NCBI GenBank assembly: GCA_903853805.1
Contig: CAINUN010000085.1
Span: 124,001-188,000 of the forward strand
Source of the DNA: an uncultured Bacteroidota bacterium
Lineage (GTDB): Bacteria > Bacteroidota > Bacteroidia > Chitinophagales > Chitinophagaceae
Reading direction: 5' to 3'
Length of the DNA: 64,000 bases
This document shows positions 6,875-7,157 of the stretch, piece by piece (within the stretch, counting starts at the first letter, position 1; every line of letters begins with the position of its first letter). Made by a program: the position numbers and the translations under genes. The notes under the pieces are model-generated. The model searched no databases, was not told the origin of the DNA, and saw nothing but the letters and a program-made list of their open reading frames with translations.

Positions 6875-7072
6875 TTAATCCTCAATCTTTCCAGATAAGA
6901 TTTGCTGACGGTAAACCGCTTTCAAAACTTCTTTACGACGACGAACAGATGGTTTTGTAAAAGACTGGCGGTCGCGCAATTGAGTCAACGTGCGTGATTT
7001 TTCGAATTTCTTCTTGTATTTCTTCAGCGCCTTGTCAATATTTTCGCAATCTTTAGAGTCGATGATTAACAT
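6875..7072 (-). CDS. rpsU: 30S ribosomal protein bS21
   Basis: A 65-residue basic protein beginning MLIIDSKDCENIDKALKKYK, with the conserved SFTKPSVRRRKEVLKAVYRQQ tail helix. bS21 is part of the 30S platform. In Flavobacterium ribosomes it helps bury the anti-SD end of 16S rRNA, and Tyr54, the residue I recall as important there, is present here. The ATG at 7072 is chosen over a longer frame because a GGGAGG SD sequence sits seven bases before it, unlike other genes in the window. The gene leads the rpsU-xerC-hpf operon and has a complete -33/-7 promoter. Confidence 0.95.
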   Translation of the reverse strand: MLIIDSKDCENIDKALKKYKKKFEKSRTLTQLRDRQSFTKPSVRRRKEVLKAVYRQQILSGKIED

Positions 7073-7079
7073 AATTATA

Positions 7080-7104
7080 CCTCCCTTTTTAATTTTTCGG
7101 GAGG
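7080..7104 (-). promoter_or_regulatory. Strong SD of rpsU within a potential SD-sequestering hairpin
   Basis: On the minus strand GGGAGG (7085 to 7080) lies seven bases before the rpsU ATG. A perfect complement CCTCCC (7104 to 7099) lies 13 bases upstream, near the expected 5' end of the mRNA, so the two can form a 6-bp stem. Strong SD sequences are exceptional in this phylum; here it probably serves bS21 autoregulation. Confidence 0.7.
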
Positions 7105-7105
7105 G

Positions 7106-7113
7106 CAAAGGTA
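7106..7113 (-). promoter_or_regulatory. Promoter -7 element (TACCTTTG) of rpsU
   Basis: Full TAnnTTTG match on the minus strand. A TTTG -33 element lies 19 bases upstream, giving the standard Bacteroidota promoter spacing. The start of transcription would be near 7100-7102. Confidence 0.75.
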
Positions 7114-7157
7114 AAAAGATTTCCTTTCCAACCAAATAATTTATCCGACAATATTTT

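Follow-up and report, generated by a model that had tools for sequence, protein, structure and literature searches.

Within the window, a 64,000-nucleotide stretch of a Chitinophagaceae genome (assembly of 3.5 Mb in 106 contigs), rpsU lies on the minus strand behind a promoter, a C-rich run (C-run) and a strong Shine-Dalgarno sequence (SD). Throughout, "position n" denotes the n-th base after the TAnnTTTG promoter box and "the family" denotes genome group f1. The features of the locus are as follows.

7133..7136, minus strand: −33 element TTTG, 19 bases before the box, assigned by its fit to the published consensus
7106..7113, minus strand: −7 box TACCTTTG (TAnnTTTG), read directly and conserved in relatives
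7099..7105, minus strand: CCCTCCC, the first seven bases after the box (+1 to +7), a probable discriminator/start region judging from family leaders and a tRNA-His match
7100..7101, minus strand: predicted rpsU transcription start at box+5 or +6 (leader of 28-29 nt), from the published spacing and the edge of an rpsA stem at box+5
7077..7089, minus strand: extended SD AAAAGGGAGGUAU, core GGGAGG at 7080-7085, pairing over 13 bp, one G-U included, with the 16S tail of the family (−18.0 kcal/mol)
6875..7072, minus strand: rpsU, ribosomal protein bS21, 65 aa (PF01165, E=3e-14; NCBIfam S21p, E=7.9e-12)

Read directly 5′→3′ on the minus strand, TTTG (7136-7133) is followed by 19 bases, TACCTTTG (7113-7106) and CCCTCCC (7105-7099), and then by GAAAAATTAAAAA (7098-7086), GGGAGG (7085-7080), TATAATT (7079-7073) and the ATG (7072-7070). 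This reading confirmed the spacings given in a preliminary description of this DNA, namely the promoter TTTG-N19-TACCTTTG before rpsU, GGGAGG seven bases before the ATG, and CCTCCC (7104-7099) 13 bases upstream of GGGAGG, the last also in its letters. The encoded bS21 carries Tyr54 of the 16S-tail pocket, which is invariant in a six-sequence alignment, and the closest bS21 proteins among named relatives come from Chitinophagaceae and Taibaiella-labelled MAGs. Genes for a phage-integrase-family recombinase and an S30AE/HPF-type protein lie 3′ of rpsU. Elsewhere, a TPP riboswitch (RF00059, 57282-57377, plus strand, 56.4 bits) is the sole Rfam match of the whole window.

The strength of the rpsU SD was computed against the family 16S tail, taken from other genomes, the source assembly having no 16S tail of its own. 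By pairing with this tail rpsU heads the list of the window's 62 ORFs (runner-up −10.1 kcal/mol) and that of the 198 ORFs on its 215,623-bp contig, where the runner-up (−14.9 kcal/mol) precedes a 75-codon ORF. The earlier remark that no comparable SD was seen at the other starts inspected in the window holds among these ranked ORFs; the ranking covers the rpsU contig, and rpsA of the same genome also has an SD. Matches to bS21 were found in 190 of 194 genomes, and leaders were fetched from among the matches listed; the family set, which leaves out L062, L164 and L190, contains 147 distinct rpsU leaders. GG[AG]GG is present in 116 of these and missing from 31, and the SD pairing is −13 kcal/mol or stronger in 117. 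McNutt et al (PMC9976891) described an extended rpsU SD in many Bacteroidota, including about half of the Chitinophagales, together with genetics and biochemistry of rpsU SD feedback in F. johnsoniae. With the family tail, the −18.0 kcal/mol of the present SD lies on the strong side of the −13 kcal/mol that delimits the bS21-autoregulation class. The proposal that a strong, rare SD at rpsU fits autoregulation by ribosomes lacking bS21 is supported; this reading of the SD is right and already known, and by its sequence rpsU would be a further member of the bS21-feedback class.

The rpsU promoter fits the motif TANCTTTG followed by C-N-N-Y-C-C. Position 1 is C in 147/147 family leaders and in 51/51 leaders of a second set from named genomes (80 loci less L356, L366, L375 and L387). 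Among the 147 family leaders, C occupies position 5 in 127 and position 6 in 128, and a pyrimidine (C or T) stands at position 4 in 140; the box begins with TT in two. The complete C-N-N-Y-C-C was found in 105/147 family leaders, comprising 81 of the 116 with GG[AG]GG and 24 of the 31 without. Because the C-run is equally common with and without an SD, it is tied to the promoter and not to the SD.

The same arrangement recurs at other genes. The pattern TANCTTTGCNNYCC occurs 17 times in the source genome versus three times for the reversed pattern, and 34 versus 4 times and 45 versus 1 time in two genus-mates. Eight of the 17 source-genome sites precede tRNA genes, four are arranged as two tandem pairs at the ends of contigs and are putatively rRNA-like, and the remaining five are those of rpsU, valS and three others. 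Among the 34 of 79 genus-mate sites that were examined, the downstream genes encode S20, S12, S10, L24, L28, S6, L13, IF-1 and tRNAs, and also products outside translation. Upstream of 16S genes in the family or order, four of five loci have at least two boxes with a C-run, and at the fifth a single box precedes TGTCCC. A tRNA-His promoter of the source genome reads TATCTTTG-CCCTCCC, with seven bases identical to those at rpsU and no SD to hide. TANCTTTG-C-N-N-Y-C-C is a promoter sub-motif common to tRNA, 16S, ribosomal-protein and rpsU genes in this family (e.g. L203, L212, L230, L047-L050). The idea that the C-run belongs to all promoters was rejected: only one of 40 upstream TAnnTTTG sites on the contig, a list that does not contain the rpsU site, fits C..YCC (a parallel scan of 220 kb from genome G010 gave five upstream sites, too few to judge, of which none fit). 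The most likely role of the rpsU C-run is that of a discriminator/start region, in a promoter whose growth type is inferred from this gene content and which is presumably served by the housekeeping sigma factor. The sub-motif may correspond to the GC-rich discriminators found elsewhere at promoters of stable RNAs.

The position of the C-run bears directly on what the rpsU mRNA may contain. The promoter box occupies −12 to −5 both in F. johnsoniae (PMC6847099, whose authors picked 4-5-base spacings as probable promoters) and in F. psychrophilum (PMC9723704), with a gap of 4 or 5 bases between box and start; the literature consulted gave no mapped start for a Chitinophagaceae member. Because of this published spacing in two flavobacteria, the rpsU start is predicted to fall inside CCTCCC, and by analogy the mRNA would keep at most CCC of the C-run, leaving no more than 3 bp of a helix with the SD. 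In PMC9976891 the rpsU start is predicted 25 nt before the ATG. Purine starts are preferred in B. thetaiotaomicron (PMC7366714); the first purine after the rpsU box is at position 8, and a start there would remove the 5′ arm entirely. Folding the leader from different assumed starts gave −10.9 kcal/mol and a full helix for position 1, −7.9 kcal/mol for position 3, −4.8 kcal/mol for position 4 and −3.2 kcal/mol with 3 bp for position 5, and no leader stem for position 6 or later. In these stemless leaders the predicted fold still engages the SD with early codons, although weakly (mean pairing 0.69 at −2.4 kcal/mol), so the SD is not predicted to be fully open.

The preliminary description proposed that a 6-bp hairpin, in which CCUCCC would be transcribed and pair with GGGAGG, could hide the SD and so add a second layer of control or tune it. 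The complement is indeed perfect, would be worth −10.9 kcal/mol if transcription began at position 1, and is rare in base shuffles of the leader, of which 1/20,000 gave a 6-bp helix containing five or more G/C pairs and 171/5,000 gave any 6-bp helix. It is also the longest complementarity of its kind in the leader set. When G-U is allowed, however, the C-runs of 8 of the other 115 family leaders with an SD likewise form a 6-bp helix with the rpsU SD of the source genome. The complementarity is real, yet unsurprising once the promoter and SD constraints on the separate arms are known. For the hairpin to form, the start would have to lie at most three bases after the box, against the published gap of 4-5 bases, and the stem would compete with a stronger SD:16S duplex (−18.0 kcal/mol). 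In the register of this helix, all six Watson-Crick pairs occur in only 1/116 SD-bearing leaders, that of the source genome. Covariation of the arms in relatives had been put forward as a check; at four of the six pairs the G on the SD side is fixed, making covariation impossible by construction, and at the two pairs free on both sides the 116 aligned leaders show none (0.35 vs 0.37 expected, and 0.38 vs 0.50). The rpsU leader matches no Rfam family at gathering score, the only match being at chance level (14.5 bits) on the opposite strand. A start inside CCTCCC and a lack of covariation were the two observations that the preliminary description named as refuting the hairpin; as far as the sequence shows, with the start predicted from published spacing, both apply, and the proposed stem and its role as a second control layer are left unsupported; we consider such a masking hairpin very unlikely, and the apparent stem is most likely a coincidence of the promoter C-run and the SD.

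A swap test, in which each arm was matched with cognate and non-cognate SDs, was also considered as evidence for the hairpin. Cognate helices were slightly longer (4.36 vs 4.27 bp, P about 0.004; P 0.11 by score), and this excess was present within similarity clusters as well. However, P values of the same size (0.0027 and 0.0007) came from a control stretch lying 9-16 bases before the box, which is not transcribed, and the result was dropped; in two further controls, untranscribed or reversed, P ranged from 0.07 to 0.35.

The leaders of rpsA served as a comparison in which the covariation method detects a real hairpin. From 60 loci, less L270, L274, L275, L277, L279, L280 and L292, 47 distinct leaders were obtained, of which 36 are SD-less and start with ATG (35 assigned by script and L267 by hand). 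These 36 come from the family and, in two cases, from the order; in 35 of them a helix begins at position 5 and spans 4 bp or more. Stem positions 7, 8 and 9 covary, pairing at 1.00, 1.00 and 0.86 versus 0.84, 0.75 and 0.63 expected (0/5,000 permutations each, relatedness being ignored in the permutations), whereas position 4 pairs at chance (0.29 vs 0.27). Since helices were sought with position 5 as the anchor, pairing there is partly a matter of choice; the level at position 4 is free of this. Because this stem covaries, it acts as a positive control for the analysis of rpsU. Its edge suggests, independently of the published spacing, that such transcripts begin near position 5. The SD-less type comprises L261, L262, L264, L265, L267-L269, L271-L273, L278 and most of L281-L310; five rpsA loci gave no Rfam match.

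The remaining 11/47 distinct rpsA leaders are of an SD type, each with a TTG start and encoding bS1. This combination was observed in 7/7 genus genomes, two of which share one leader, and in five other family members. The loci, with the same promoter type as rpsU, are L255 (the source genome itself, G000:C100), L251-L254, L256-L260, L263 and L266; L274 and L279, outside the 47-leader count, show an SD plus TTG by eye. The SD reads AAAAGGAGGAC in SD-type leaders and AAAGGGAGGAC in the source genome, where rpsA also has a CTCCC/GGGAG complement.

An alternative account of both the C-run and GGGAGG is that the 16S tail of this species is altered (CCUCCC...) and the SD followed the rRNA, which requires an own 16S 3′ end other than ...ATACCTCCTTTTT. 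In its favour, both rpsU and rpsA of the source genome have GGGAGG, the corresponding SDs of six genus-mates are GGGGG (rpsU) and GGAGG (rpsA), and SD/anti-SD covariation is reported for some Flavobacteriales (PMC9976891). The replacement of GGAGG by GGGGG in the rpsU SD of these genus-mates (L020, L021, L022, L025, L030, L033) implies a G-U pair with a standard anti-SD. Such pairing appears to be tolerated, as nine family genomes combine these SDs with the standard CCTCCTTTTT tail: GGGAGG in G111 and G186, and GGGGG in G192, G120, G039, G214, G087, G142 and G075. Of 394 family genomes searched, 71 gave a match, and 69 of these read GGAATACCTCCTTTTTAGAG (G359 and G393 differ); the search pattern left the middle base open and required TTT right after CNCC, such that a CCTCCCTTT tail could not match. 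A 16S match was absent from 7/7 genus genomes. An altered genus anti-SD as the cause of GGGGG and GGGAGG was accordingly rejected on finding only CCTCC with the middle base open, in a search that CCTCCCTTT would escape. An altered tail would, moreover, leave the C-run unexplained, and we regard it as about as unlikely as the masking hairpin. Similarly unlikely is a chance or relic SD match with no bearing on translation, as might be suggested by the 31/147 family leaders and several order-level relatives without GG[AG]GG, given the rank of rpsU among 198 ORFs, the pairing of −13 kcal/mol or stronger in 117/147 family leaders, and the genetic and biochemical support published for F. johnsoniae (PMC9976891).

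We therefore favour, with considerable confidence, a model in which the C-run promoter and the extended SD are independent signals that are complementary by chance, with transcription starting within the C-run, no stem hiding the SD, and feedback exerted through the SD. Transcription would proceed from the growth-type promoter TTTG-N19-TACCTTTG, whose C-rich start region CCCTCCC is common to tRNA, 16S and ribosomal-protein promoters of the family. Starting within CCCTCCC, the leader would be approximately 28 nt long and keep at most CCC, precluding a 6-bp SD-hiding stem. Translation of rpsU would then be governed by the extended SD AAAAGGGAGGUAU: the 16S tail would normally be held by bS21-bS18-bS6, and ribosomes lacking bS21 would read rpsU best and refill bS21. 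The strength of the SD, the promoter motif, its independence of the SD and the lack of covariation are direct observations. The ribosome behaviour and the box-to-start distance would carry over to this species by analogy with flavobacteria.

The proposed control shares with bS21 autoregulation in F. johnsoniae (PMC9976891) an extended SD well below −13 kcal/mol, a short leader, Y54 and the strongest SD among the tested ORFs; it differs in belonging to the Chitinophagaceae and in having an SD with a G-U pair, and its dependence on bS21 is putative. The word "hairpin" is absent from the main text of that paper, and rpsA is named there once, for cloning. The box, spacing and −33 element are those of the TTTG/TAnnTTTG −33/−7 promoters of Bacteroidota (PMC6847099, PMC9723704, PMC7366714), to which the present family adds C-N-N-Y-C-C after the box, in common with its tRNA, 16S and ribosomal-protein genes, a feature absent from the descriptions in the accessible parts of these papers, the supplementary information of PMC9723704 aside. 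The proposed stem resembles structured ribosomal-protein leaders (20 candidates in PMC7247131) in being placed in a ribosomal-protein leader, but in rpsU it has neither covariation nor an Rfam match; the ribosomal-protein leader table of PMC7247131 has an entry for neither S1 nor S21. Literature identified by title or the start of the abstract contained no SD-hiding rpsU hairpin in Bacteroidia, no rpsA leader-type switch and no specific description of the C-run (the supplementary information of PMC9723704 lying outside that scope).

The rpsU case sets a known control signal, the SD, apart from a look-alike hairpin. In this family the C-rich bases after TAnnTTTG would often complement an SD by coincidence, and promoter-adjacent hairpins that seem to hide an SD should therefore be checked against the transcription start first. 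The analysis further suggests that genes for stable RNAs and ribosomal proteins share a promoter sub-motif and that rpsA has switched between leader types. Tentatively, SD-reading feedback in the genus may extend to two genes, with rpsA (strong SD, UUG start) also read best by ribosomes with a free tail, although we think this rather doubtful. If true, an SD with UUG and a covarying 5′-end hairpin with AUG would be two solutions for the rpsA leader that swap within one family.
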